From a virus, in the IMG/VR virus record IMGVR_UViG_3300008120_000879, positions 1 to 24,884 of that record: a stretch of DNA of 24,884 nt; one strand, 5' to 3'. The notes beneath the pieces are model-generated. The model did no database searches, had not been told where the DNA came from, and saw only the letters and a list, made by a program, of their open reading frames with translations. The stretch's first letter is position 1. Each line of letters begins with the position of its first letter. A program made the translations under genes and the position numbers. This document shows, piece by piece, positions 4,420-23,998 of the stretch.

Positions 4420-4914
4420 TTATTTGTGGGATAATCCTGTGTTTTCTAAGACACCTAGGTTTTTAAAAAATCTTTCTGAATCAAACCTTTGATTATCCTT
4501 AGAAAAAATTCTACCAATTTGTAAGGCTAGTTCCTCATATATTCTTACATCTAGATGATTTTTTATATTTTTTAGTGCATCTGATACTTCAATGTATGTA
4601 GATCTCATAAAAACTGGATCTATTCCTGGTGGTCTTTTTATTATTTTTTCAGACACTCTCCCCGATGGCTCATATAAAGTTACTTTTAGAAAATTTTTTG
4701 CGAATCCCCAATCTACATATGAATCATACACTCTTACTGCATCTATTGCATTATCGTAAGATATTATAGATCTAGGAGGATTCTCCCCGTCCCTTGAAAT
4801 AGATATTATGTAATGTCCAACAGTTCTTTCTTGAACCCCTTTGACATATTCATTTAATATTCTTTCATTTTCTGGATTGAGTTGTCCCCATTCATCTCGT
4901 ATAGTATCATTCAT
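4420..4914 (-). CDS. Hypothetical protein, 164 aa, between the hydroxylase block and the giant adhesin
   Basis: I do not recognise this family. The protein is soluble and mixed alpha/beta. The middle contains a small beta-rich unit (GHYIISISRDG, RSIISYDNAIDAVRVYDSYV, residues 33-67) that looks like a short domain for an appended argument of repetitive 'I-S-x-D-x-A-x-x-x-x-x-Y' type, followed by 'FLKVTLYEPSGRVSEKIIKR' (75-94) and a helical C-terminus (SDALKNIKNHLDVRIYEELA). There are no cysteines, no signal peptide and no membrane helix. Its ATG overlaps the stop of the upstream hydroxylase by 1 nt (TAATG), so it is translationally coupled to that gene. Position between enzymes and adhesin permits a chaperone or accessory role, which is speculation. 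Confidence 0.7.
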   Translation of the reverse strand: MNDTIRDEWGQLNPENERILNEYVKGVQERTVGHYIISISRDGENPPRSIISYDNAIDAVRVYDSYVDWGFAKNFLKVTLYEPSGRVSEKIIKRPPGIDPVFMRSTYIEVSDALKNIKNHLDVRIYEELALQIGRIFSKDNQRFDSERFFKNLGVLENTGLSHK

Positions 4915-5600
4915 TAAATATCTTTTTTCTTATATGCCTGTACATGCTCTGGATTAAATGGGTCGTATCCATCTACAAATATAAACGCTGTAGAGATATA
5001 CTTGTACCCAGATTTTACTGGATGTGATTGATGTAGATATGGATGGGTGGAGGGAAATATCAGCGCTGACCCTGCCTTTGGCTTAATCCAAAAATCCAGA
5101 TTGGGATCATCTAAATTAGTACCTGGCCTACTCTTTCCCTCTCTATCGATCATAAAGGAAATCTCTCCACCTTCACAGTCTTCATTAAAATATAAGACTA
5201 TAGAATATAGAAGATTCATATCCCCATCTTGAGTGTCATGATGCACACCCAGACCACCTCCTGGCGGGTACTTACACATATCTAAAGATGGAGAAATATT
5301 TGGTTCAATATCTAGACCCCTATCTGTTACAAATTGCTTGGCTACTCTTTCTATTGCACTTCTCATATTTTCTATGATTTCTTTTTCCAGCAATCGGTTA
5401 TCTCCCGTAGAGGAATCTCTTTTGTCAAAAAAGAGATCCTTTCTTTCTCTATGGCAGGAGTCCTGCTTCCACATTGAAATAGATTGATGAACTTTCTCAT
5501 CTTCGTTTATTCTTTCTAGATCATCTATAACTTTCTGCGGGTCTTCAATTACATCAGTGTAATAGAAAATATTGTCATAATAAATTTTTTCTAAATTCAC
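4914..5600 (-). CDS. 2-oxoglutarate/Fe(II)-dependent hydroxylase, prolyl-4-hydroxylase-like, 228 aa
   Basis: P4Hc-type dioxygenase. It should couple oxidative decarboxylation of 2-oxoglutarate to hydroxylation of a substrate, in this family often a proline or lysine side chain. The facial triad is visible: H120-x-D122 (GVHHDTQDGD) and distal H190 (PYLHQSHPVKSG). K200 (SGYKY) is the expected 2-oxoglutarate anchor. The core strand 'LLYSIVLYFNEDCEGGEISF' and 'KPKAGSALIFPSTHPYLH' are typical. An insertion between these (residues 150-172) lengthens the fold. Starts with GTG directly after the TAA of the upstream hydroxylase (0-nt gap) without a clear SD. Last of three hydroxylases in tandem. Substrate unknown; tail proteins are the local candidates. 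It could instead modify host proteins or a small molecule. Confidence 0.88.
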   Translation of the reverse strand: MNLEKIYYDNIFYYTDVIEDPQKVIDDLERINEDEKVHQSISMWKQDSCHRERKDLFFDKRDSSTGDNRLLEKEIIENMRSAIERVAKQFVTDRGLDIEPNISPSLDMCKYPPGGGLGVHHDTQDGDMNLLYSIVLYFNEDCEGGEISFMIDREGKSRPGTNLDDPNLDFWIKPKAGSALIFPSTHPYLHQSHPVKSGYKYISTAFIFVDGYDPFNPEHVQAYKKKDI

Positions 5601-6341
5601 TTATCCCAACTCCTCTATTTTATATTTTTCACCGTTTTCAGAAATTTTATAGCCCTCTTCTAAAAGAGTTTGCCATTCTTTTTTCTGAACATTCTGCTTT
5701 TCTCTAATACTTTTCATCTCTTCTTGCCATTGTTTTTTTAGTTCCTCTGGGTATGCAACTTCATCCCTATCGTCCCAAAACGATCCTATGGTATATCTAG
5801 TACCACTTTTTATTAAGGTAACCTCATGGATATTTTTAAATCCTCCTGAAAAGCAGGCAAGCATTCCTTTCTTGGGATATATTTCTATATCCTTATTTGT
5901 AAACTTTAAAGTTCCACCAACAAAGTCGTCATTCAAATATAAGAATGCTGCGTATCTACTTCTTTCAAACGGGCTTGGATTTCCTTCAAGGTCGGTGTTG
6001 TCTGAGTGTGGTCTGGCGTATGCACCTGGCTCCCATTTTTGACTATGAAATCCAATCTTGAATATTGAACTTTTATCTAGTCCATGAATAGATGCTACAC
6101 ACTCAATAAATCTATCTTCAAGTTCTGAGAAGAAATTATTATTCAAACCAAATTCTTTTACCTCTTCATCAGTGTCTCTTGGAGTTACAGAAGAATATGA
6201 CTCATAAAAAGATATTGGCATCCATTCAAGTCTCCCGTTTTCTGTTTGCTTGTCTAGAATCTTTATTACCTTTTCGCACTCTTCTTCTGTAATAAAATCT
6301 TCAAATACAAGTATGTCCTCTGTGATCCTTTTTTCTATCAT
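5601..6341 (-). CDS. 2-oxoglutarate/Fe(II)-dependent hydroxylase, 246 aa, with charged C-terminal tail
   Basis: P4Hc-fold dioxygenase. Counting from the chosen start, the iron ligands are H112-x-D114 (ARPHSDNTD) and H172 (KNIHEVTLIKSG), with R182 (SGTRY) binding the 2-oxoglutarate carboxylate. The intervening 'YAAFLYLNDDFVGGTLKF' is the usual central strand pair. Past the core there is an unusual extension of about 60 residues rich in Lys/Glu/Gln (KKQWQEEMKSIREKQNVQKK), probably helical and absent from its neighbours. The frame is open further upstream to 6377, but ATG 6341 is preferred: it has a strong SD (AAGGAGG, 5-6 nt upstream), gives the 4-nt ATGA overlap with the preceding gene, and the protein then begins with the expected 'DILVFEDFITEEEC' strand. 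Substrate unknown. Confidence 0.88.
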   Translation of the reverse strand: MIEKRITEDILVFEDFITEEECEKVIKILDKQTENGRLEWMPISFYESYSSVTPRDTDEEVKEFGLNNNFFSELEDRFIECVASIHGLDKSSIFKIGFHSQKWEPGAYARPHSDNTDLEGNPSPFERSRYAAFLYLNDDFVGGTLKFTNKDIEIYPKKGMLACFSGGFKNIHEVTLIKSGTRYTIGSFWDDRDEVAYPEELKKQWQEEMKSIREKQNVQKKEWQTLLEEGYKISENGEKYKIEELG

Positions 6342-6988
6342 GGCTGCCTCCTTCCAGTATGTTTTTTTATTGTCCAAAAGAACGGTACGGTATACCTAAT
6401 TCCTGATTTTATTTCGCTAACTCCATGAATATAGTTCATGTCTCCTGGGAAGAAGTATGCTGACCCAGCCTTTGGCTTGAACTGAATTCCTTGATTGGGG
6501 AAGTATAACTCCCCGCCCTCATAATCATCATTGATATAGAAAAGCCCTGCAATGTCGTACCACGGGAAATCATTTGGTTTGCCTGCGTCTGGACCAGAAT
6601 GCAATTCTTTATCCGCGTGTGGCATTTGAAATTGACCAGGAAGCCATCTTACCATGGCAGGGCTAGTAGGAGCGGCATCTACTGAAAAATATGAATCTAC
6701 TTCAATCTTAAGCCTAGCGACCATACCTTCAATAATATCTATTATTGATGTGTCTATTTTAGATATATTAGGATAGGTAATAACTCTGTCATCCCAGTAA
6801 TTTGAGTCATATATTACTGTTCCATTTTCGTTATAGTGAGTTTCAGTCACATCCCAGACTGTATTGCCTCTGATAAAAGAATTTAACTTATACAACTCTT
6901 CTCCAGTTATAAAGTTATCTAAAGAAATAATGTTTTCTGGAGAATCGCCAAAAAATCCCGATGGGGTTATAGATTTTGGATGCATCAT
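6338..6988 (-). CDS. 2-oxoglutarate/Fe(II)-dependent hydroxylase, prolyl-4-hydroxylase-like, 216 aa
   Basis: Complete P4Hc-type dioxygenase. The iron-binding triad is H124-x-D126 (FQMPHADKE) and H188 (MNYIHGVSEIKSG), and R198 (SGIRY) is the co-substrate anchor. The core 'DIAGLFYINDDYEGGELYF' and 'KPKAGSAYFFPGDMNYIH' are textbook for the phage branch of the family. Residues 21-40 (ISLDNFITGEELYKLNSFIR) are the usual N-terminal 'fixation' strand and helix. ATG 6988 overlaps the upstream stop by 4 nt (ATGATG, two possible Met starts). It begins a run of three hydroxylases. Sequence divergence from its neighbours outside the active site suggests that they act on different substrates or sites. Confidence 0.9.
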   Translation of the reverse strand: MMHPKSITPSGFFGDSPENIISLDNFITGEELYKLNSFIRGNTVWDVTETHYNENGTVIYDSNYWDDRVITYPNISKIDTSIIDIIEGMVARLKIEVDSYFSVDAAPTSPAMVRWLPGQFQMPHADKELHSGPDAGKPNDFPWYDIAGLFYINDDYEGGELYFPNQGIQFKPKAGSAYFFPGDMNYIHGVSEIKSGIRYTVPFFWTIKKHTGRRQP

Positions 6989-7701
6989 AAGTACTTTCTT
7001 CTAGACCAAACTTTATTCAAATAAACGCCTCCGCTTGGAACGCGAAACTTTGCGCTATTTTCTACATTATTATTATACATCACTTGCTCGTCAGGATACT
7101 CATATTCCTTCTCCCAATCATCCCTCTTAAACGGAAGCAATTGTAAGTACGGAGTTCCTTGTGGAATAGTACCCTCCCATCCATCTCTAATAAAAAATGG
7201 AACCGTACCTGGAAGACTAACTTTATCGTTATCCACAATTCCTGTAGTATTTAAAAATGGTAGGTCGAATCTATTAAATGGCTGTGACCATAAAACACTA
7301 TAGCCGTCTGGAGTTTTAATTCCCCAGTCAGGCCACCACGCAAAATGTTCTTTTCTGTAACCCTCTGGCTGCATAAAGTCAGGCATTTCGCTACGCTTGT
7401 GGACAAAATCAGCGTATCGGGGATGTGTTTTAACATCCAGAACATTATTAGAATAATAAAAGGTTATGTCGCATGGAGTCTTTAATACATATCCAGTTCC
7501 AAGAATGTCGTATATGGCTGGGCAGGCCTTCCATGATGGAACCTTTCCTCCATCTGGACCAATCACCTCTTCACCTTCATGATTCTTCAAGTACCTACTA
7601 GAATTCATATACCAATCAGGGATACTTTTTACAGATGGAGAAGGGTTGGTTTTGGTGCTGTCATTTAGCCATGGCCTATTGGCGAGGAACTTAATCTTCA
7701 T
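6985..7701 (-). CDS. Cupin-like conserved phage protein, 238 aa (paralogue A of three)
   Basis: Function unknown. It shares a clear ordered motif set with two other proteins here (16043-16783 and 17818-18570): 'SIPDWYMN' near residue 27; 'KACPAIYDILGTGYVLKTP' at 58-76; 'TPDGYSVLWSQPFNRFDLPF' at 130-149; 'GTVPFFIRDGWEGTIPQGTP' at 165-184; 'LQLLPFKRDDWE'; and a basic end 'RRKYL'. The central 'P-x-G-(T)-P-x-x-Q-x-x-P-F-K-R' beta pattern suggests a cupin-like or DUF6065-like beta barrel, which is inference. I recall homologues in cyanophage genomes next to 2OG-Fe(II) oxygenases. Its ATG lies inside the end of the upstream gene (11-nt overlap), so the two are coupled. No signal peptide or membrane segment. 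Confidence 0.75.
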   Translation of the reverse strand: MKIKFLANRPWLNDSTKTNPSPSVKSIPDWYMNSSRYLKNHEGEEVIGPDGGKVPSWKACPAIYDILGTGYVLKTPCDITFYYSNNVLDVKTHPRYADFVHKRSEMPDFMQPEGYRKEHFAWWPDWGIKTPDGYSVLWSQPFNRFDLPFLNTTGIVDNDKVSLPGTVPFFIRDGWEGTIPQGTPYLQLLPFKRDDWEKEYEYPDEQVMYNNNVENSAKFRVPSGGVYLNKVWSRRKYL

Positions 7702-8401
7702 CTGTAACCTTGATTAATATTTTTTTAGCCTCATGCTCTCCATAAGGATTATTGTTATGATCGACTGCGTTTCTGTAAAAATGAGTCCATTCCCCCTTAG
7801 AATTCAATTCTTGGGAGATTTCTCCACGCCTTTTAATTCGCTCGGTCCATGAATTTTCAGACATAAAATTAGGCTGTCCAGAAATTATAGATACCTCTGT
7901 ATTGTTTAATTCTGAAAGAGAAATGGGAAGAATTGATGCAACTATAGTTCCAGCGGGTATTGTAATTATTTCTTTTGCCTTAGTCACCATAATTGCTATT
8001 GGTAATGATCCTATTAATGCTGATGTACTTATTATTGTGCTAATACACTGTATGCCATCTAAAAATATATTTGGAGGGGGCGTTGTCATAATAGAAATAT
8101 TTTCTTCTGGAGAAAAATATAGCCCCGTTTCAAAACTGATGCTTCTATTTCCTCTATTTGTATGGGCAAAGTTTCCGCCCTTGATAATTTCTATGTGATG
8201 GTTAGAAGAAGTATTGACTCCATCCCACCTGAAAGAAAGATCTTCTTTGAACGCAACTCCTAGTCCAGCCCTATTTGCTAGTGAAACGGGAAAGCATTGA
8301 TAGGCATGTCTATCAAACGTGGCGTCCATCCAGTCCCTATTCATTGGTAATTGATCTAAAATAGCGGGAGAGCCTACATCCTTATACACTTTTATTTTCA
8401 T
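7691..8401 (-). CDS. DUF6065-like protein, 236 aa
   Basis: The opening 'NRDWMDATFDRHAYQCFPVS' (residues 21-40) followed by 'LANRAGLGVAF..DLSFRWDG' matches my memory of the DUF6065 family (bacterial and phage proteins with 'DWMDATP.RFAYRCLPL.IAN..GW'). Later elements are 'GNFAHTNRGNRSISFETGLY', 'IMTTPPPNIFLDGIQCIST', and a hydrophobic beta-rich section 'LPIAIMVTKAKEIITIPAGT' then 'VASILPISL'. The IPAGT...LP step parallels the IP-x-GTP...PFKR step of the cupin-like paralogues, which suggests a shared fold (inference). Hydrophobic runs are beta strands, not obvious membrane helices. It overlaps the upstream hydroxylase by 1 nt (TAATG) and the downstream paralogue by 11 nt. Biochemical role unknown. 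The family name is less sure than the conserved motif. Confidence 0.7.
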   Translation of the reverse strand: MKIKVYKDVGSPAILDQLPMNRDWMDATFDRHAYQCFPVSLANRAGLGVAFKEDLSFRWDGVNTSSNHHIEIIKGGNFAHTNRGNRSISFETGLYFSPEENISIMTTPPPNIFLDGIQCISTIISTSALIGSLPIAIMVTKAKEIITIPAGTIVASILPISLSELNNTEVSIISGQPNFMSENSWTERIKRRGEISQELNSKGEWTHFYRNAVDHNNNPYGEHEAKKILIKVTDED

Positions 8402-9099
8402 TATGCTCCAGTTTCTTGATAAAACTCTGGACGATGATATTTATCTGAATAATCTAACATAGTAACTATAGAGTACTTTGTTCCTGACTTTACTGGCATA
8501 GCGGTATGAGGATACATAAAGTTTGATGGAAATACAAACAAGTCTCCTGCCTGCGGCTTTACAGTAAGTTTTTGAAGACTAAAACTTAATTCTCCACCCT
8601 CATAATTATCATTTGGATATCCTACAAGGGACACTACGCAGTTATAAGAGTATCCGTGATCGTGATGCTCCCTAAAATGCTGACCTGGACCGTACTTTAC
8701 AAAGTTCATAGCCTCCCAATATCTTAACTCTCCTATATTGAAATACTTACAATACGCTTGGGCTGCTGGGAAGGCTCTTTTATAAACTGAGTCCCATAGT
8801 TTTTTTAGAACAGTACCTGACAAAGAGTTATCGTTTTCAATATCGCTTCTTTTATATTTAAAATCAAAGCAGTCCCTGTAGTCGGGGACTTTCATGCCAT
8901 ATCCAACCATTGCTTCCATAAAATCATATTGATTAGATTTGTCTTGAATAACATCTTCAAGCATATCTATAGATTTAGTAGGAATAGCATCTCTAAATAC
9001 GAAAATACCTGGCCCAAGTTCTTCTACTGATGACCAAGTTTGTTCTTCTACAGTATAGAAGTTTTCTATTTTTTTTGCTATATCTTCAATGCTATTCAC
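8401..9099 (-). CDS. 2-oxoglutarate/Fe(II)-dependent hydroxylase, prolyl-4-hydroxylase-like, 232 aa
   Basis: P4Hc-type enzyme with H145-x-D147 (FREHHDHGYS), distal H198 (FMYPHTAMPVKSG) and K208 (SGTKY). Central strands are 'CVVSLVGYPNDNYEGGELSF' and 'KPQAGDLFVFPSNFMYPH'. It is most similar in the window to the next gene upstream (9099-9827): both have 'E-x-x-N-F-V-K-Y-x-x-x-x-H-H/F' before the HxD and 'DY' after the last core strand. A recent or ancient tandem duplication is therefore likely. The start is GTG, overlapping the TAG stop of the upstream gene by 1 nt (TAGTG), with no strong SD, so translation is probably coupled. These two hydroxylases lie directly downstream of the Pro-Phe repeat protein. 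Confidence 0.9.
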   Translation of the reverse strand: MNSIEDIAKKIENFYTVEEQTWSSVEELGPGIFVFRDAIPTKSIDMLEDVIQDKSNQYDFMEAMVGYGMKVPDYRDCFDFKYKRSDIENDNSLSGTVLKKLWDSVYKRAFPAAQAYCKYFNIGELRYWEAMNFVKYGPGQHFREHHDHGYSYNCVVSLVGYPNDNYEGGELSFSLQKLTVKPQAGDLFVFPSNFMYPHTAMPVKSGTKYSIVTMLDYSDKYHRPEFYQETGA

Positions 9100-9827
9100 T
9101 AATATACCAATCTTTGATCTTGTTCTCTGTAAGGATAATATCGTAGATTTCCACGGGAGTTATAATCAGTCATCACTACTACTGAGTATTTTGTTCCAGA
9201 TATCATTGGCTTAGAGGCATGTTCATATATAAATGTTGATGGAAACATTACAACGTCCCCCTGATTTGGCTTAATTGTTAAATCAAATCTTGGAAAGTAA
9301 AGTTCTCCACCCTCATAGTTATCATTTAAATATGCAACAATTGAAACTGTAGTAACATATGCTGGACCATGATCAGCATGAATATTAAAATGGTGCCCAG
9401 GACTTTCATATTTAACAAAGTTAAATACTTCAAAATAGTTCACTCCTACGCCCCAATATGCTCCATAATCTTGTGAGCATTGGTATATACTTCTAAATAC
9501 TGACTCATGCATATCATAAAAGATAGAATTGCTTTCATCTCTATCTCCCAGATTATTTTGACCAATCTTAAAGTCTAGGCAATACCTCGCCTCTAATAGA
9601 GGTTCATTTGACTCTGTTACAATGGCTGGCTGCCAGTTGTATTTCGTTGATGGCCCTAGATTTTTTTCTAAAGTATCTATTGAATACTCGCATGTATCTT
9701 TTGGGATAGCCCTATTATATATATTAATTCCCAGGGCTGGATTGGTTACTGAAACATTCCCAATAAATTTTTCTGGCATTCTGTGGGCATCAGTTTCTTC
9801 CCGATTTTTATTAAGCCAATCGTTCAT
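9099..9827 (-). CDS. 2-oxoglutarate/Fe(II)-dependent hydroxylase, prolyl-4-hydroxylase-like, 242 aa
   Basis: P4Hc-type enzyme: H150-x-D152 (HHFNIHADHGPA), distal H203 (FIYEHASKPMISG) and K213 (SGTKY) are all present, so it should be active. The core reads 'VSIVAYLNDNYEGGELYF' and 'KPNQGDVVMFPSTFIYEH'. A 'NYFEVFNFVKYESPG' segment before the HxD matches its downstream neighbour. It is the first enzyme of cassette II and starts 17 nt after the stop of the FN3/Pro-Phe/Hint-like protein, with a weak purine-rich SD (AGAAGAAAGAA). That adjacency makes the Pro-rich linker a natural candidate substrate, which is inference only. Confidence 0.9.
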   Translation of the reverse strand: MNDWLNKNREETDAHRMPEKFIGNVSVTNPALGINIYNRAIPKDTCEYSIDTLEKNLGPSTKYNWQPAIVTESNEPLLEARYCLDFKIGQNNLGDRDESNSIFYDMHESVFRSIYQCSQDYGAYWGVGVNYFEVFNFVKYESPGHHFNIHADHGPAYVTTVSIVAYLNDNYEGGELYFPRFDLTIKPNQGDVVMFPSTFIYEHASKPMISGTKYSVVVMTDYNSRGNLRYYPYREQDQRLVY

Positions 9828-9844: not shown

Positions 9845-10741
9845 TTATTCAAAGTAGCCGATGGTGCCTTGCACGACATAGAAATTATTTGGACTACTCA
9901 TTATATTGTACATTATTGAAGAAACCTCTTCAAGTTCTATGTTATTAATTTCTATAAACTCTGATTTTTCATAATTAAACAACTTATATGTTGTATCTAT
10001 TTCAGTAGGCTTTTTAAATGAAACTATTCCTTCATTTTCCACTAAGATATTTAGATTATCAGGGTACACTTCACCATCTATATACACAAAGTTCTGAGTT
10101 TCGGAATAGGAAGAAATACTACTTATTTCAGTGTTTACCTGATCTCCAATGCTTACACTATTAGTTCCTAGCCCATCTATATTTACTGAAACTAGAGAAT
10201 CGCTTTCAGTCAAATACTTAGCCTCTAAATATCCATAGTCAGATGTAAGAATCATTACTTTAGAATCATCTCTTAACTGATTGGATGGTGCAGTTTTAGA
10301 CGGAGGGAAACTTGGGAAGAACGGTGGAAAGAATGGGAAGAACGGAGGGAAGAATGGGAAAAATGGCGGGAAGAATGGAAAGAATGGAGGAAAGAATGGA
10401 AAGAATGGGAAGAACGGTGGAAAGAACGGTGGTGGTGCTGATGTTGTAGCACTTGCCGTACCAGATCTAAGTCCTCCTGCTCCAATAGCAGTAACTGTTA
10501 CAGTATATGCAGTGCTTCCCGTAAGACCAGTAACATTAACTGTAGCCCCGCTAAAAGAAACAGTTCCTCCTGCTGGGGAGGTGCTTCCTATATATTGCCA
10601 CCTTGCATCATAATTACTAATATTAAATGTTAAAGTATTAAATGTCGTGGCTGTATTAGAAAAGACAGGAATGGGTGGAGCCATTGGTTTATGAATTCCT
10701 GGAATTCTACCATGTCCAGAAAATTTTGAAACAAACGCCAT
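9845..10741 (-). CDS. Fibre-associated protein, 298 aa: FN3-like domain, Pro-Phe repeat linker, degenerate Hint-like C-terminus
   Basis: Three parts are visible. Residues about 25-100 form an FN3/Ig-like beta sandwich (FNTLTFNISNYDARWQYIG ... GLTGSTAYTVTVTAIGAGG). Residues 103-147 are a low-complexity linker made only of Pro and Phe apart from one Ser, mostly PPFFPFF units. Residues 157-298 resemble the Hint (hedgehog/intein) fold: 'KVMILTSDYGYLEAKYLTES' fits 'G-T-x-V-L-M-x-D-G-x-x-x-x-x-x-D-L', and 'YIDGEVYPDNLNILVENEG' with 'YNIMSSPNNFYVVQGTIGY' fits the blocks ahead of the splice junction. However, the catalytic N-terminal Cys/Ser and the terminal His-Asn are absent (it ends GYFE), so self-cleavage is unlikely. 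It overlaps the upstream 200-aa gene by 1 nt (TAATG). Confidence 0.75.
   Translation of the reverse strand: MAFVSKFSGHGRIPGIHKPMAPPIPVFSNTATTFNTLTFNISNYDARWQYIGSTSPAGGTVSFSGATVNVTGLTGSTAYTVTVTAIGAGGLRSGTASATTSAPPPFFPPFFPFFPFFPPFFPFFPPFFPFFPPFFPFFPPFFPSFPPSKTAPSNQLRDDSKVMILTSDYGYLEAKYLTESDSLVSVNIDGLGTNSVSIGDQVNTEISSISSYSETQNFVYIDGEVYPDNLNILVENEGIVSFKKPTEIDTTYKLFNYEKSEFIEINNIELEEVSSIMYNIMSSPNNFYVVQGTIGYFE
10301..10435 (-). repeat. In-frame tandem repeat encoding the PPFF/PFF linker
   Basis: About 135 bases made of purine-rich units on the plus strand of the kind GGGAAGAACGG(A/T)GG(A)AAGAATGG, repeated with small variations in length and synonymous bases. On the coding strand they give runs of CCx and TTC/TTT codons, i.e. 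Pro and Phe. Unit length varies in steps that keep frame, consistent with slippage or unequal exchange changing linker length. The extreme strand purine/pyrimidine asymmetry could also favour triplex formation. Confidence 0.85.
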
Positions 10742-15452: not shown

Positions 15453-16034
15453 CTATCTTCCACATGAACATCCAGATCCGTGACCCAACAAATCCTTAGG
15501 TTGCTCACTCATCCAGGTGACAATTATATACTTTATCCCCTTTGATACTGGCTCTGCTGCGTGTAAATACGGATAATTAGAAGGGAAAAGCACTAAAGCA
15601 GGACTATCTGGGTTTATAGTGTAATTAAAGTGCTTAAATGTCGTGCCGCCGCCATCATATTCTCCAGGATTTAGATAAATAAGTGCAGAAACATCCCTAG
15701 ATAATCCTGGTCCATGGTCGGTATGAAAATCATACTTGTCATAAGACTCATACTTTAGTAAACTAAGACCCTCATCCTTACTAACAGAAATATCATAATA
15801 ATTATTATATTTCTTTACACAATCATACATTATAGGTCTAATTTTTTCCTTGGATATTTCAAGCATATCTAGGTCAAATCCTGTACTAGATCTAATATGT
15901 TTAACTAGGTCTCCGCCGCCGACCATTGAATCTGACCATGACAACTTTGACTTATTTACAGACTTAATAGTTTGTTTTGCTATAGATTCTGGAAACTCAA
16001 ATTGAACTGCTCCAGGGAATATTTCAATAGCCAT
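15453..16034 (-). CDS. 2-oxoglutarate/Fe(II)-dependent hydroxylase, compact, 193 aa, Cys-containing C-terminus
   Basis: Shortest of the six dioxygenases. The triad H104-x-D106 (YDFHTDHGPG) and H158 (YPYLHAAEPVSKG) and the anchor K168 (KGIKY) are present. The core is 'VSALIYLNPGEYDGGGTTF' with 'NPDSPALVLFPSNYPYLH'; it has GGG-T where relatives have EGGEL. The N-terminal strand-helix is reduced, so the enzyme is close to the minimal fold. It ends 'GHGSGCSCGR', with two cysteines and a histidine that the other hydroxylases lack. A metal or disulfide role is possible but unproven. It follows the cupin-like paralogue B by 8 nt with SD GGAG and precedes a tail-fibre gene. Likely role: hydroxylation of a protein side chain, perhaps in a fibre. 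Confidence 0.88.
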   Translation of the reverse strand: MAIEIFPGAVQFEFPESIAKQTIKSVNKSKLSWSDSMVGGGDLVKHIRSSTGFDLDMLEISKEKIRPIMYDCVKKYNNYYDISVSKDEGLSLLKYESYDKYDFHTDHGPGLSRDVSALIYLNPGEYDGGGTTFKHFNYTINPDSPALVLFPSNYPYLHAAEPVSKGIKYIIVTWMSEQPKDLLGHGSGCSCGR

Positions 16035-16042
16035 AATGTCTC

Positions 16043-16783
16043 CTATAAATATTTCTTCTTTACTCTATACTTCTTTTTATATTCTCCGCCTGATACCTTG
16101 CCCTTATCATCATATCTAGTGGCATGAAACTCTGACTGTGCTAAAGAAATTTGTTGCCTATCTAAGTTAGTGGGTTCTGGTACAGAGAGTTCCCAATCAT
16201 CTCTTTTAAAAGGAATTATTTGAACAATGGGCGTGTTAGCCGGAATGGTTCCCTCAAAATTCTTAGCCATCAAAAAGGGGAACTGGACTGCTATTGGATG
16301 CTTATCTGTATCAACAACTCCAGTAAGAGTTAGAAATGGGGAAATTTGATTAAATGGATGGGTAAAAATACAACTGTACCCTGGTGGAGTTTTAATAACA
16401 TATGGATTACTAAATTTATATGCATATTCATTGTACACGCTACCAACATCTAATCCCCTCAACTGCTCCCATGGATGCATTGTAATTGGCTTTATGCCGC
16501 CGTCAACTAATTTAGCGGGGCATTGGCAGGAATGATTTCCTTCTTTATCTACACTCCATACTGATTCATATTTAGTTACTAAATAATACCCAGTAGTAAA
16601 AGCGTCAAGGATGGGTATACATTTTTTAGCAGTGAAGTCGGGCTGCTCATCTGGATTATTTCTATTATAGAGCCTTCTTACAGAAGGCAAGTTTTTATAC
16701 CACTTCGGTATTTCTTTATAGGCTGGCACAGGGTATAGGCAGCCGCCTCCGTATTTTTCTAGATCTAAAAACTCAATCTTCAT
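16043..16783 (-). CDS. Cupin-like conserved phage protein, 246 aa (paralogue B)
   Basis: Same family as 6985-7701 and 17818-18570. Ordered motifs: 'EIPKWYKNLP' (23-32), 'KKCIPILDAFTTGYYLVTKY' (53-72), 'TPPGYSCIFTHPFNQISPFL' (about 132-151), 'LTGVVDTDKHPIAVQFPFLM', 'FEGTIPANTPIVQIIPFKRD' and a strongly basic end 'KKYRVKKKYL'. The region between the first two blocks and the third is variable and contains 'SCQCPAKLVDGG'. No function is known to me; a beta-barrel small-molecule or protein-modifying role is inferred from company. ATG 16783 lies inside the end of the glycosyltransferase gene (11-nt overlap), the same arrangement and spacing as paralogue A with its upstream gene. Confidence 0.75.
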   Translation of the reverse strand: MKIEFLDLEKYGGGCLYPVPAYKEIPKWYKNLPSVRRLYNRNNPDEQPDFTAKKCIPILDAFTTGYYLVTKYESVWSVDKEGNHSCQCPAKLVDGGIKPITMHPWEQLRGLDVGSVYNEYAYKFSNPYVIKTPPGYSCIFTHPFNQISPFLTLTGVVDTDKHPIAVQFPFLMAKNFEGTIPANTPIVQIIPFKRDDWELSVPEPTNLDRQQISLAQSEFHATRYDDKGKVSGGEYKKKYRVKKKYL

Positions 16784-17825
16784 TTTCTCTCCGTGGTATG
16801 TAAAATGTATCTACAGATTCAAATTCTGGATATGATAATCCTGCGTAATCACAATATTCTTTAACTTTTAATTGATTATTAGGATTTTGTAAATATCTAT
16901 CCGTTCTTTCTATAGATTCTCTATACGAATTTATGCTTGGTTCTGGATTTTGTCTAGATTCTTCAGTATAAAAATCATTATACCAATCCATATATAGATG
17001 TGCTAGTGGTAATTCAAAATGCGGGAAAATCATATTATATCCACGGGACAGGGCTTCGATTGAACCAATAAACTCTTCCTCAAAAAATAGGTAGTGCCAT
17101 GGATATATATATTTATAATCATCGTATAGCCTATGGTCTGAAAAAATAAAATTTGCATTTATTTTTCTAGAATATACATATCCTTCGGGCAATAAATTAT
17201 CTACAATATTAGATTTTTTTATCACATATGGCAATCCTTTAGTGGTTAAATTATCTACTGATCTTACGGTAACCCACCTTGGTATATGTGGATACATGGG
17301 ATTTCTTATCAAATCTTCTGGATACAGACCTTGTTCAGTTCCTGTATTGTTTATGGAAGTCCAGCAGGGATACCTTGGCATATTTTCATCAGGTGAATTA
17401 CGAACATTATCTTTTAATAGTTCATATCCTGGAAGATAGGCAGTTAGCATATGCTTATCTCCAGCAAGGTCCTTAGGAACTGACTTATACATCTCCAAAA
17501 CTTTGCTGTCCCATGATTTAGCAAAATTTGTATGCCCGTCTATTTGAAGAATATAGTCCTGTCCAGAGTACATAGACATGGCATTTATTCTTCCGTAGCC
17601 AACGCCCTCGCTACGATAAAAATTAATAAATTTTTGTGAGATATTTTTACCAGTTATTTTCTTTTTAATTTCATCAATTCTTTTTTTATATTTAAAAGGA
17701 ACTGAATGGCAAATACCCATATATATATCATCAGGATTGTCTGCCTCATCAAATGCCTTTTCTGCAACATGAAAAATCTCTTGATCTTCCACAGAAGGAA
17801 CTGATATAAAAATACTATTAGTCAT
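16773..17825 (-). CDS. GlcNAc transferase of the Skp1/Gnt1-like glycosyltransferase family (PF11397-like), 350 aa
   Basis: The N-terminus 'SIFISVPSVEDQEIFHVAEK' followed by 'AFDEADNPDDIYMGICHSV' is the opening Rossmann strand and helix of the Gnt1-like family, whose Dictyostelium member adds GlcNAc to hydroxyproline of Skp1. 'GVGYGRINAMSMYSGQDYIL' (74-93) and 'QIDGHTNFAKSWD' (94-106) correspond to the family's acceptor-side block and metal-binding D-x-H/D motif (usually DSH, here D96-G-H98). Later 'FIFSDHRLYDDYKYIYPWHY' and 'FFEEEFIGSIEALSRGYNMI' (about 247-266) match the second catalytic block. Soluble, with no transmembrane anchor, so it acts in the host cytoplasm. It overlaps both neighbours (8 and 11 nt) and so is part of the enzyme cassette. 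Donor and acceptor are predicted, not shown. Confidence 0.8.
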   Translation of the reverse strand: MTNSIFISVPSVEDQEIFHVAEKAFDEADNPDDIYMGICHSVPFKYKKRIDEIKKKITGKNISQKFINFYRSEGVGYGRINAMSMYSGQDYILQIDGHTNFAKSWDSKVLEMYKSVPKDLAGDKHMLTAYLPGYELLKDNVRNSPDENMPRYPCWTSINNTGTEQGLYPEDLIRNPMYPHIPRWVTVRSVDNLTTKGLPYVIKKSNIVDNLLPEGYVYSRKINANFIFSDHRLYDDYKYIYPWHYLFFEEEFIGSIEALSRGYNMIFPHFELPLAHLYMDWYNDFYTEESRQNPEPSINSYRESIERTDRYLQNPNNQLKVKEYCDYAGLSYPEFESVDTFYIPRRENED

Positions 17826-18570
17826 ATTTTTTCTTGACCCAAATATTGTCCCTGTACCATCCCATTGGGACAGATCTAACCTTATCTGCTAGATAATTCT
17901 GTCTTTTAACACTAAATGTACTAATGGAGGAAATCCATGAACTTCTCTTAATTGGAATTATTTGAGCAATAGGTGTTCCCGATGGAATAATACCTTCAAA
18001 ATTTTTCTTAAAAAAGAAAGGTATGTTTCCGCCCGTCCACCACTCATCGGCATCCATAATTCCAGATGTTGTAATAAATGGTAAATCAAATCTATTAAAT
18101 GGATGTGTTATTAATGCACTCCAGCCTTTAGGTAATCTGGCCCCCCATTGTCCACTAAATGCCATATGATCAGAACAATATCCCTCTGGTCTTGGAATTG
18201 TGTGACCGATATCTCCATCTCTTCGTCTTAACATCTCTGGTCCATGAAAGTTAGTTTTTTCATGCTTATCTGTATATGGATTTATAGATACTGCATACAT
18301 CTCTTCTAGAGATTCAGATGTTTTTACATAATAATCTTGCCATGAACAAATAAGGTATCCAGAAATCATTGCATCTAGAAATGGCATACACGATTTAAGT
18401 CCACCAGATACATCTCTATCATTTACTCCTGCAACTTTTCCAGTTTTTTCAGAAATAGCAATTTCTGCGTCTTTATACCACCTAGGAATAAATTCTTTAG
18501 ATGGAATAGGGGCAGGAATATTTTTTAAAGCGTATGGATCTCCTGGCACAAATTTTATCTTTTTAGGCAT
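17818..18570 (-). CDS. Cupin-like conserved phage protein, 250 aa (paralogue C)
   Basis: Third member of the family. Motifs in order: 'EFIPRWYKDAE' (25-35), 'KSCMPFLDAMISGYLICSWQ' (58-77), 'LPKGWSALITHPFNRFDLPF' (about 142-161), 'ITTSGIMDADEWWTGGNIPF', 'FFKKNFEGIIPSGTPIAQII' and 'PIKRSSW', ending 'WVKKKYD'. It is longer between the first two blocks (EKTGKVAGVNDRDVSGG) and has a His-containing stretch 'CSDHMAFSGQWG'. I recall this type from cyanophages. Catalytic residues cannot be named. The conserved HPFN and GTP-x-x-Q pattern is where a binding site would be sought. Overlaps the upstream 68-aa gene by 8 nt and the glycosyltransferase start by 8 nt. Confidence 0.75.
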   Translation of the reverse strand: MPKKIKFVPGDPYALKNIPAPIPSKEFIPRWYKDAEIAISEKTGKVAGVNDRDVSGGLKSCMPFLDAMISGYLICSWQDYYVKTSESLEEMYAVSINPYTDKHEKTNFHGPEMLRRRDGDIGHTIPRPEGYCSDHMAFSGQWGARLPKGWSALITHPFNRFDLPFITTSGIMDADEWWTGGNIPFFFKKNFEGIIPSGTPIAQIIPIKRSSWISSISTFSVKRQNYLADKVRSVPMGWYRDNIWVKKKYD

Positions 18571-18769
18571 TAGGTATCACTACTTCTGACCCATCCATTT
18601 CAATATAGAACCCCCTTTGAGGATCATAGTTCCATGATTCGGTAATTTGATTATTTGTTATATCAACTACTTCTGGATTGGACATAAGTACAGAAGCGGT
18701 CATTTCATCAAGTCTCATGGTTAGGACTACTTTGCCATCTATAACGAACGCTAATGTTTTTTGATTCAT
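18563..18769 (-). CDS. Small conserved protein, 68 aa, paralogue of the 97-aa protein
   Basis: The segment 'LAFVIDGKVVLTMRLDEMTA' with 'SVLMSNPEVVDI' matches 'LALIIDGIVEDIIHCDERLG' with 'YLLMSEPLVIEL' in the protein at 18992-19285. The shared pattern is L-A-x-x-I-D-G-x-V ... D-E ... L-M-S-x-P-x-V, so they are paralogues with about 35 aligned residues. The rest reads 'NQITESWNYDPQRGFYIEM'. It has a two-beta-strand plus helix look and no cysteines. The ATG overlaps the stop of the zinc-ribbon gene (ATGA). No function is known to me; position between fibre and enzyme genes suggests a small structural or assembly role. Confidence 0.7.
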   Translation of the reverse strand: MNQKTLAFVIDGKVVLTMRLDEMTASVLMSNPEVVDITNNQITESWNYDPQRGFYIEMDGSEVVIPNA

Positions 18770-18999
18770 TTTGGCACCTCCTCTACATTAACCCTACCCC
18801 ATTTATTTAATGGGCAACCTGCATTTGCTAATTTAGTTTTTTCTTTCATAAAGCATCCACATTTTTTACACTGAAAGGTAAGTCTGATTAACTCTGGACA
18901 TTCTTTACAAATTTCAATTCTTTTATTATATGTATCAGAGTCAACCCTTCCCATTTTTTTATTAAATAGGTCCCATGGTCTTACTGGCTTATCAGACAT
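18766..18999 (-). CDS. Small zinc-ribbon-type phage protein, 77 aa
   Basis: Begins 'MSDKPVRPWDLFNKKMGRVD'. It has a cysteine cluster 'ICKECPELIRLTFQCKKCGC' followed by 'FMKEKTKLANAGCPLNKWG': C-x2-C, then C-x2-C-x-C and a last Cys-Pro, enough for one zinc site. I recall this small family (C-x-x-CP ... CKKCGC-x-M-x-x-K-(T/A)-KLA-x-x-x-CP-x-x-K-W) from many phages, possibly filed as DUF6171. The frame is open to 19038, but ATG 18999 is chosen: it has an SD (AGAGGG, 5 nt away), starts the conserved part, and shortens the overlap with the upstream gene from 47 to 8 nt. Role unknown. Confidence 0.8.
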   Translation of the reverse strand: MSDKPVRPWDLFNKKMGRVDSDTYNKRIEICKECPELIRLTFQCKKCGCFMKEKTKLANAGCPLNKWGRVNVEEVPK

Positions 19000-19285
19000 T
19001 TTTACCCTCTTTGTAGAAACTATTTGCTTCTTCATCATATAAATCTGAAATATTTACCTTTAGAGAATTATTATCCAATTCAATAACTAGAGGTTCACTC
19101 ATAAGTAGATATCCTAGTCTTTCATCACAATGAATTATATCTTCTACAATACCGTCAATAATCAAAGCCAGGTGCATTGGAGCATCCTTTGCCCTGCTAT
19201 ATTTTGGATTTGGTTTATAATATGTGCTATCTACGCCTAAAAGTTTTTTAATTAAATAGTTTTTGTAGGTATCTCTTTTTTTCAT
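18992..19285 (-). CDS. Small conserved protein, 97 aa, paralogue of the 68-aa protein
   Basis: Has a basic N-terminal extension 'MKKRDTYKNYLIKKLLGVDS' (1-20) and 'YYKPNPKYSRAKDAPMH', then the shared core 'LALIIDGIVEDIIHCDERLG', 'YLLMSEPLVIELDNNSLK' (about 39-76), and an acidic tail 'ISDLYDEEANSFYKEGKNV'. The core is that of the 68-aa protein two genes downstream. The pair brackets the zinc-ribbon gene. ATG overlaps the upstream stop by 1 nt (TAATG). The function is unknown. The basic N-terminus could bind nucleic acid or simply dock to a partner. Confidence 0.7.
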   Translation of the reverse strand: MKKRDTYKNYLIKKLLGVDSTYYKPNPKYSRAKDAPMHLALIIDGIVEDIIHCDERLGYLLMSEPLVIELDNNSLKVNISDLYDEEANSFYKEGKNV

Positions 19286-20325
19286 TAACTTACTCCGAAC
19301 TCATCTATTGTTGAACCCTGTTGAAAACTTGAAGTAGATTTTATTATACCATGTTGACTATTTTTTAATGGAGTAGTAATGGACTGAACAACTGAATTAC
19401 CAATTTGAGAGGTATATAATGTAGTAGAAAATGCTTGAATAGTTGCTTGATTTCCAGAAAGTATTGTTCTAAATGATTGTATGGCTGAACTAAATAAATT
19501 AGCACTAATTGTAGAAACAGTGTTTGCTAATGATCTTAGAATAGATACTCTATGCTCAGTCACACAATTACAAGAAAAAGAAGTAAATTGATTACAGTTA
19601 CCTGGAGCAGTTTGATTACAGTTTCCTGGGGTTAGATATGTACTAGTTGGAGCGCAGCAGAAAACTCCAGATACGTTACAATTTCCTGGTGCTACGTTTT
19701 GATTACCGCCAGTAGGTGTTCCATTACATACCCAGTTTCTTGACGGCCCCCAGGGAAATCCGTAGGGTGGCGCCCCATTACCACTATTTGCGCTATTATA
19801 AATATTAGCGGGACCATTTTGTGAATTTGGATTACATGTAATTGGATTAAATTGACCTGATGGATATGGAGACCACGTTGGGAAAAATCCATTGCAACAG
19901 TTAGCATTACATACTGGAGCATTTACATTTCCAATGCATGTCGGAGCATTAAAGTTTCCAGTGCAACTTACGCATGTTTGACAGACTTGAGTTTGTGTAT
20001 ATACAGATGCGTACCAATTATTTGCATCAGTAACCCAGAATGATGCTCCCATTCCTGGATCTGCGCCAGAAATGCTTACTGTAACATCTGTTTTAGTAAA
20101 TTTTAAGGTTGCTAGTGCATTGTCCCCTGCCGCGCTTGAAGAAGATGCTTTATTACTAACAATAGACCATACTCCGCGCCAGACTCTCCATCTTTGCCCC
20201 TTTATAGTGCCTAGGCCAGATTGATCAGCCCTAGTAAATAAATCAATGACCGAGGTTAGTGCGGATAAAACCGTTAGTCCAAACGCCCTTACTGATCCTG
20301 AGGCGCGTGACGAGAGAAGTGGCAT
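19285..20325 (-). CDS. Cys-rich fibre/tip protein, 346 aa: LamG-like jelly roll interrupted by a 16-cysteine insertion
   Basis: Residues about 28-112 look like the first half of a LamG-like phage domain (DLFTRADQSGLGTIKGQRWR, VWRGVWSIVSNKASSSS, ASFWVTDANNWYASVYTQTQ). The second half resumes at about 256 (EHRVSILRSLANTVSTI). Between them residues 115-254 carry 16 Cys plus many Asn, Gly and Pro, with a small repeat 'APGNCN'/'TPGNCNQTAPGNCNQ'. Cys positions are 115, 118, 121, 130, 139, 143, 144, 164, 200, 216, 223, 224, 236, 244, 252 and 254. This might be a disulfide-bonded or metal-binding tip. There is no signal peptide. The 1-nt TAATG overlap with the upstream FQIDG protein mirrors the arrangement of the 200-aa and 298-aa pair in fibre cluster 2. 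Function inferred: surface-exposed adhesin. Confidence 0.7.
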   Translation of the reverse strand: MPLLSSRASGSVRAFGLTVLSALTSVIDLFTRADQSGLGTIKGQRWRVWRGVWSIVSNKASSSSAAGDNALATLKFTKTDVTVSISGADPGMGASFWVTDANNWYASVYTQTQVCQTCVSCTGNFNAPTCIGNVNAPVCNANCCNGFFPTWSPYPSGQFNPITCNPNSQNGPANIYNSANSGNGAPPYGFPWGPSRNWVCNGTPTGGNQNVAPGNCNVSGVFCCAPTSTYLTPGNCNQTAPGNCNQFTSFSCNCVTEHRVSILRSLANTVSTISANLFSSAIQSFRTILSGNQATIQAFSTTLYTSQIGNSVVQSITTPLKNSQHGIIKSTSSFQQGSTIDEFGVS

Positions 20326-23677: not shown

Positions 23678-23998
23678 TCATGATAAATATGCCTTTCCAG
23701 CGAAAGGATCTCTAAATGTTGCCACTAGAGTATTTGCGTTGATAAATTGGTAATTTCCGATTACCGCGCTTCCCGCAGAGTCAACGATCTCTACATTTGG
23801 GAAGAATCCTAAATTATGGTTTATTGTCCATGTATTTGAAGCAGTTCCTTGAACATGCGTATAGGCTCCAATTCCTGGGTCTCCCTGTGGACCTTGTATT
23901 CCCTGTGGACCTTGAACTCCTTGTGGGCCTTGAACTCCAGAGGCCCCAACAATAACATTGTTTTCAACTCTCTCTACAATTACTCTTTGCTCTGTCAT
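23678..23998 (-). CDS. Small collagen-like tail protein, 106 aa
   Basis: Residues 21-44 are eight Gly-X-Y triplets (GVQGPQGVQGPQGIQGPQ, then GDPGIG), which should form a short collagen-like triple helix. The N-terminal 18 residues (MTEQRVIVERVENNVIVG) would dock. Residues 50-106 are a small tip domain 'NTWTINHNLGFFPNVEIVDS' ... 'NANTLVATFRDPFAGKAYLS', the same fold signature as the tip of the 350-aa fibre. Pro falls in the X position of GPQ triplets and, in GDP, in the Y position that collagen prolyl-4-hydroxylases prefer. It overlaps the upstream gene by 4 nt (ATGA). Likely a minor fibre or adaptor. A collagen-like phage protein in a genome with six P4H-like enzymes is notable. Confidence 0.82.
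   Translation of the reverse strand: MTEQRVIVERVENNVIVGASGVQGPQGVQGPQGIQGPQGDPGIGAYTHVQGTASNTWTINHNLGFFPNVEIVDSAGSAVIGNYQFINANTLVATFRDPFAGKAYLS

Follow-up and report, generated by a model that had tools for sequence, protein, structure and literature searches.

The glycosyltransferase gene and its neighborhood

The window analyzed in this study is the whole 24,884-bp record of an uncultured virus of bacteria (IMG/VR IMGVR_UViG_3300008120_000879). Positions 16773–17825 encode a 350-amino-acid glycosyltransferase (GT) of the PF11397/GT60 type. The original prediction had placed an open reading frame (ORF) at this span without stating its strand; the span is correct, and the ORF lies on the minus strand, stops being found throughout the plus strand. 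The gene overlaps its downstream neighbor (16043–16783) by 11 bp and its upstream neighbor (17818–18570) by 8 bp. Such overlapping frames had been noted, as had hydroxylase-cassette genes on the flanks. Both observations hold, with one correction: the two direct neighbors encode DUF6065/phrog_7084 proteins rather than hydroxylases, and the nearest 2OG oxygenase is found one gene beyond (15453–16034). The assignment of the GT to a phage is supported.

These genes form part of a minus-strand cassette. Starting from the first gene transcribed, it encodes a candidate acceptor, namely a LamG-like scaffold protein whose variable insert (approximately residues 113–241) is rich in Asn/Cys/Pro/Thr (19285–20325); a small conserved ORF of 97 residues (18992–19285) that is related to the ORF at 18563–18769; a Cys-rich, 90-residue DUF6171/phrog_13558 protein (18766–19038); the latter small conserved ORF, of 68 residues and with no function assigned (18563–18769); a 250-residue phrog_7084 (DUF6065-like) protein (17818–18570); the GT; a 246-residue DUF6065/phrog_7084 protein (16043–16783); and a 2OG-Fe(II) oxygenase (15453–16034). 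The oxygenase matches PF13640 and harbors the HxD...H motif, marking it as a putative prolyl 4-hydroxylase-like enzyme; prolyl 4-hydroxylases are its best match (E = 7.7e-9). The high-confidence model of the DUF6065 protein (pLDDT 88.8) has a predicted dUTPase-like fold (Z up to 9.3), a likeness that we consider modest in view of its Foldseek E-value of 1.5e-3. DUF6065 relatives in haloarchaeal tailed viruses, such as that of HRTV-7 (gene 38, locus L364), are encoded beside a thymidylate synthase and a DNA polymerase, which hints at another role there. We found no description of the cassette in the literature that we searched, which covered only a minority of subscription papers.

The protein encoded at 19285–20325 had no match in Pfam, and its “LamG-like” designation is taken from its sequence pattern. 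Between related phages, its flanks are conserved and its low-complexity insert differs strongly in length and make-up. The insert is rich in Asn/Cys/Pro in the window, L481 and L482, in Asn/Cys/Gly in L483 and L484, in Thr/Cys in L055, and in Tyr/Thr in L021, L083, L124 and L532; Pro accounts for 17 of the 129 residues in the window’s version. We considered and rejected the notion that the insert changes with the presence of the GT, as no difference in composition was visible between cassettes with and without one. This result weakens the case for the LamG-like protein as the acceptor.

A second cluster on the minus strand (4914–9827) contains five 2OG oxygenases (4914–5600, 5601–6377, 6338–6988, 8401–9099 and 9099–9827) and two phrog_7084/DUF6065 proteins (6985–7701 and 7691–8401). 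Adjoining these five oxygenases is an fn3-like protein (9845–10741, minus strand; the fn3 match is below the cut-off) with FFPPFFPFF repeats, a candidate hydroxylase substrate. Similar FFPP stretches are found within the LamG-like proteins of L157 and L189, and PPGFF repeats occur in L074. A small tail-region protein (23678–23998) contains a short collagen-like Gly-X-Y stretch (GVQGPQGVQGPQGIQGPQGDPG) and has relatives in L055 and L109. The portal fragment at 1–660 is 57% identical to those of large Streptomyces phages, e.g. Bmoc and Riptide; an actinobacterial host is thus a guess only.

Family membership, active site and predicted fold

A profile search places the window GT in PF11397 (E = 3.9e-27; 96.1 bits vs. 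a cut-off of 21), in agreement with the Gnt1-family membership originally proposed. The sequence blocks GVGYGRINA...YILQIDGH, FSDH and FFEEE, which had been cited for that proposal, are all present. The N-terminal portion of the protein is covered by a match to PHROG 24687 (“glycosyltransferase”), and NCBIfam returned zero matches. The protein is not assignable to GT27, a family marked by PF00535 together with a ricin lectin domain: PF00535 scored 13.6 bits, below its cut-off of 23.3, and a Pfam scan of the 350 residues detected no ricin lectin domain. We regard PF11397/GT60 membership as well supported. The PF11397 family is best known from protists. The Skp1 Gnt1 family is PF11397 in Pfam and GT60 in CAZy, and GT60 also includes mucin-type polypeptide GlcNAc-transferases that act on Ser/Thr-rich domains (PMC8724618, PMC6939170).

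In the window GT, the DxH metal motif of the family (DGH at 96–98), its EE pair (250–251) and its third histidine (His 276) are intact. The unusual glycine in the first of these, noted in the original prediction, is a genuine and rare variant. Among the matches listed, 130 viral members have Ser (105), Ala (17) or Gly (3) at the middle position, with no call in 5; the D-G-H copies are those of the window, L013 and L041. In an alignment of 71 divergent viral members, R79, D96, H98, W105, D106 and F228 are invariant, and E250, E251 and H276 are conserved at 90% or more.

From this 71-member alignment, we generated an AlphaFold2 model of the GT (pLDDT 81.5, pTM 0.88), which is weak at residues 159–169 and 189–210. 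When the model was compared to known structures with VIA-align, the top 29 rows were all polypeptide GalNAc-transferases (Z = 17–19.9 over approximately 265 residues), headed by GalNAc-T2 (Z = 19.9, 268 residues, 9% identity). Enzymes of this class, which are the initiators of mucin O-glycosylation, also headed the Foldseek list; polymer synthases have the same GT-A fold and scored Z ~15. A phmmer search of PDB sequences with the window GT itself gave no match, and a profile of the 71 viral members alone succeeded: it detected Toxoplasma GalNAc-T3 (E = 1.2e-4), aligning the viral DxH with DAH and the late viral His with GHVFR. Structure prediction, which had been suggested as a check, thus yields a modeled GT-A fold related to polypeptide HexNAc-transferases, and the polypeptide-transferase-like fold of the window GT is well supported.

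Distribution of the family and its gene neighbors

Three of 50,697 records in a phage protein search contained a family member (XacN1, RAS14 and CM1). Because no close relatives of the window GT were found in viral contigs by GT sequence alone, a degenerate DNA motif ([LF]Q[IV]DxHxxFxxxWD) was scanned across IMG/VR instead. At least 120 loci were recovered, and all 120 of those listed encode a family member when judged with an HMM derived from these very loci; all five members sampled (L013, L042, L054, L055 and XacN1) passed the Pfam cut-off for PF11397. The same motif identified at least 116 loci in bacterial genomes, every listed one with a member. The family is thus widespread in uncultured viruses and bacteria. 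In a tree of 132 viral domains, a large clade of ~415-residue proteins that includes XacN1 and RAS14 stands apart from several divergent clades. The window GT falls in a 12-row clade (SH-aLRT 99) with L055 as its nearest relative; placements are approximate, as the tree was built quickly and its branches are long. Elsewhere in the family, GT60-type genes are accompanied by a 2OG oxygenase in genomes of SAR86 bacteria (L369, L372, L377, L384, L395, L428, L432, L441 and L444), and a single 917-residue viral protein (L042:7259–10009) combines PF11397 with a protein O-fucosyltransferase domain (PF10250) in one fusion.

Does the cassette travel with the GT? The window’s layout, including the GT, recurs in L483, L484 and L055, and cassette partners accompany 10 of the 12 rows of its clade. 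At 53 loci with a LamG-like gene, we found DUF6171 at 43, a 2OG oxygenase at 25, DUF6065 at 24 and a GT at 8. The loci nearest to the window by their LamG-like genes, L481 and L482 (60–62% identity), have the order DUF6065-DUF6065-2OG, uninterrupted by a GT. The cassette can thus do without the GT, which is optional, and the hydroxylase and GT activities are separable. Near 80 of 123 viral GT loci, cassette partners were absent (among the matches listed, and within the sequence around each locus). A 2OG oxygenase was present at 63 of 119 DUF6065 loci, which had been gathered by a motif scan.

As a control, we compared the 120 GT loci listed (1,083 kb) with 120 viral ThyX-motif loci (1,099 kb). 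The cassette genes were concentrated at the GT loci: 25 vs. 3 for the 2OG oxygenase, 20 vs. 1 for DUF6065 and 21 vs. 0 for DUF6171. Clustering by anchor left 63 GT clusters (from the matches listed) and 51 ThyX clusters, and the first members of these gave 21/63 vs. 0/51, 17/63 vs. 0/51 and 15/63 vs. 0/51, respectively. The ThyX loci are probably more often distant from tail genes, so this enrichment may partly reflect location in the tail region, which the control cannot separate from a direct functional link.

A different type of neighbor was prominent elsewhere in the family. Mucin-like ORFs, defined by a 60-residue stretch of at least 60% Thr/Ser/Pro, were present at 38 of the 120 GT loci listed, compared to 3 of 120 ThyX loci (p = 5e-10) and 2 of 119 DUF6065 loci. 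Among the matches listed, their commonest place was directly upstream of the GT: in its direction of transcription, they occupied rank −1 in 18 of 112 cases and −2 in 13 of 98, with none at +1 (0/113) or +2 (0/102). Counted by cluster in the same listed set, the association was 12/63 for GT vs. 1/51 for ThyX (p = 0.006), and clusters with such an ORF upstream only outnumbered those with one downstream only by 10 to 3 (p = 0.09). Entropy-based counts of low complexity were noisy in GC-rich bacteria, and the main claim was made without them. The TPTPTNTETPTNTPT repeats of L054, L082, L023 and L069 exemplify these sequences; in the mucin-bearing clade, Thr (42%) exceeds Pro (20%) in the repeats. 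Some mucin-bearing loci have extra glycosyltransferases, such as a GT25 in L112.

We scanned ten of the mucin-like or repeat neighbors. LamG_3 was above its cut-off in L058 and L069, and an S74 chaperone was detected in L074. Baseplate/tail or virion-structural PHROGs matched the neighbors in L040, L054, L058, L066, L069, L074 and L103, and those of L016, L060 and L115 matched solely PHROGs of unknown function. The repeat protein that adjoins the GT in L016 (7666–9027) has PASTA and weak intein/Hint matches. The mucin association is strongest in the ~415-residue clade, which is without the cassette and is not the clade of the window; the window itself lacks any Thr/Pro mucin-like ORF and has just the mixed insert of 19285–20325.

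Proposed role and comparison with known systems

The usual assumption is that phage glycosyltransferases target DNA or sugars of the host surface. In the present case, the family, the fold and the order of the genes suggest that mucin-type enzymes O-glycosylate virion proteins, joined in one branch by prolyl-hydroxylase-like partners. We propose, at a probability of roughly 60%, that the window GT is a metal-dependent phage protein O-glycosyltransferase acting on the phage’s own low-complexity virion proteins. The comparison across hundreds of related loci suggests a decoration resembling that of mucins in animals and protists. The family, the fold, the catalytic residues, the conservation of the cassette and the family-wide tie to mucin-like genes were computed here. 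The GT-A-fold enzyme would depend on a metal and probably retain stereochemistry, and its donor would likely be UDP-GlcNAc or a similar UDP-HexNAc. It would be made together with the modification cassette (the prolyl-hydroxylase-like 2OG oxygenases, DUF6065 and DUF6171), which follows a tail-type protein whose variable, low-complexity insert is presumably exposed. The side chains modified would most likely be Thr/Ser, and possibly hydroxylated Pro, in low-complexity regions of virion proteins; any benefit might lie in shielding, stability or altered host binding. That the window GT glycosylates protein is likely; from the gene order, we reasonably infer a virion protein as its target; and hydroxyproline is a possible acceptor.

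Two elements of the original prediction fared less well. The hydroxyproline-type label is not supported: GT60 also has Ser/Thr mucin-type enzymes, 80 of the 123 loci (among the matches listed) are without cassette partners, many members adjoin Thr/Pro-rich proteins, and L481 and L482 have the cassette without the GT. The “cytosolic protein” target was drawn by analogy with Skp1; the window’s neighbors point to virion (tail) proteins.

If a virion target is substituted, the original idea becomes a special case of the explanation that we prefer: a Skp1-like route of two steps, in which a prolyl-hydroxylase-like enzyme would first create hydroxyproline or another hydroxylated residue in a virion protein, to which the GT would then add GlcNAc. 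The nearest 2OG enzyme, with its affinity to prolyl 4-hydroxylases (E = 7.7e-9; family profile, 2.7e-21), the Pro-rich insert (17/129 in the window), the FFPP repeats, the cassette partners that accompany 10 of the 12 members of the window’s clade, the enrichment of 2OG genes beside the GT and the GT60–2OG pairing in SAR86 bacteria are all consistent with this route. We nonetheless consider it doubtful: most viral members are without a nearby hydroxylase (among the matches listed, within the sequence around each locus), L481 and L482 keep both hydroxylase and insert without a GT, and Thr predominates over Pro (42% vs. 20%) in the repeats of the mucin-bearing clade. Only tentatively would we speak of a modular phage system for post-translational modification, in which hypervariable, low-complexity loops of the phage’s own tail proteins are first hydroxylated and afterwards O-glycosylated. 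Such a system would parallel, in viruses of bacteria, both the Skp1 route and mucin O-glycosylation, and its GT would be an optional module subject to gain and loss.

The pairing of 2OG oxygenases with GTs is also known in phages for DNA. Virus glycosyltransferases that hypermodify DNA have been described (Pyle 2024, as cited in PMC12619734). A corresponding role here, with 2OG oxygenases hydroxylating bases and the GT adding sugar as in phage TET pathways, would accommodate the XacN1 family member near a DNA polymerase, and also DUF6065, with its dUTPase-like fold and its relative adjoining thymidylate synthase in HRTV-7. This role is improbable, however, as the 2OG profile is far closer to prolyl 4-hydroxylases (E = 2.7e-21) than to TET-like enzymes (E = 4e-4), the GT fold is nearest to polypeptide transferases, and the identifiable genes of the window are of virion type or belong to the cassette, none being replicative. 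Another role, commonly proposed for phage glycosyltransferases (PMC10202952), is to alter a glycan or LPS-like polymer on the host surface and so keep other phages out. Here it is very improbable: although the GT-A fold is also that of polymer synthases (Z ~15), polypeptide transferases are the better structural match, no membrane or flippase genes were identified in the window, and the GT is tightly coupled to tail-type genes and protein hydroxylases.

If O-glycosylation of virion proteins is indeed the function of the window GT, it would bear on our understanding of phage host range, particle stability and the recognition of phages, and it would offer candidate enzymes with which to glycosylate proteins in bacteria. 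With three phage genomes detectable vs. at least 120 loci in uncultured viruses, the system is common yet nearly unstudied.

Among known systems, Skp1 Gnt1 of Dictyostelium and Toxoplasma (GT60) shares its Pfam family, PF11397, with the window GT, a likeness seen via the profile. That enzyme is cytoplasmic and acts after a prolyl hydroxylase, whereas the acceptor of the window GT is probably a virion protein and most of its viral relatives are without a nearby hydroxylase (among the matches listed). The mucin-type polypeptide alpha-GlcNAc-transferase of Trypanosoma cruzi belongs to the same CAZy family, GT60, and its Ser/Thr-rich acceptors resemble the Thr/Pro proteins that adjoin many viral members; it operates in a eukaryotic secretory pathway, however, and the window’s candidate acceptor is rich in Asn/Cys/Pro/Thr and is not a classic mucin. 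The GT27 polypeptide GalNAc-transferases have the fold and the DxH...H layout in common with the window GT, which differs in having no C-terminal ricin lectin domain and in a sequence identity of only ~8–10%. PF11397 members from phages are already in databases, namely the “glycosyltransferase family protein” of Xanthomonas phage XacN1 and PHROG 24687. The XacN1 member belongs to the longer clade and has a different gene context, adjoining a carbamoyltransferase near a DNA polymerase; the part of its sequence that was read showed no hydroxylase cassette. This context is compatible with another role there. We know of no hydroxylase cassette in the glycosylated mycobacteriophages. Those phages, as cited in PMC12619734 (Freeman 2023), provide a reported instance of virion glycosylation that resembles the role proposed for the window GT.
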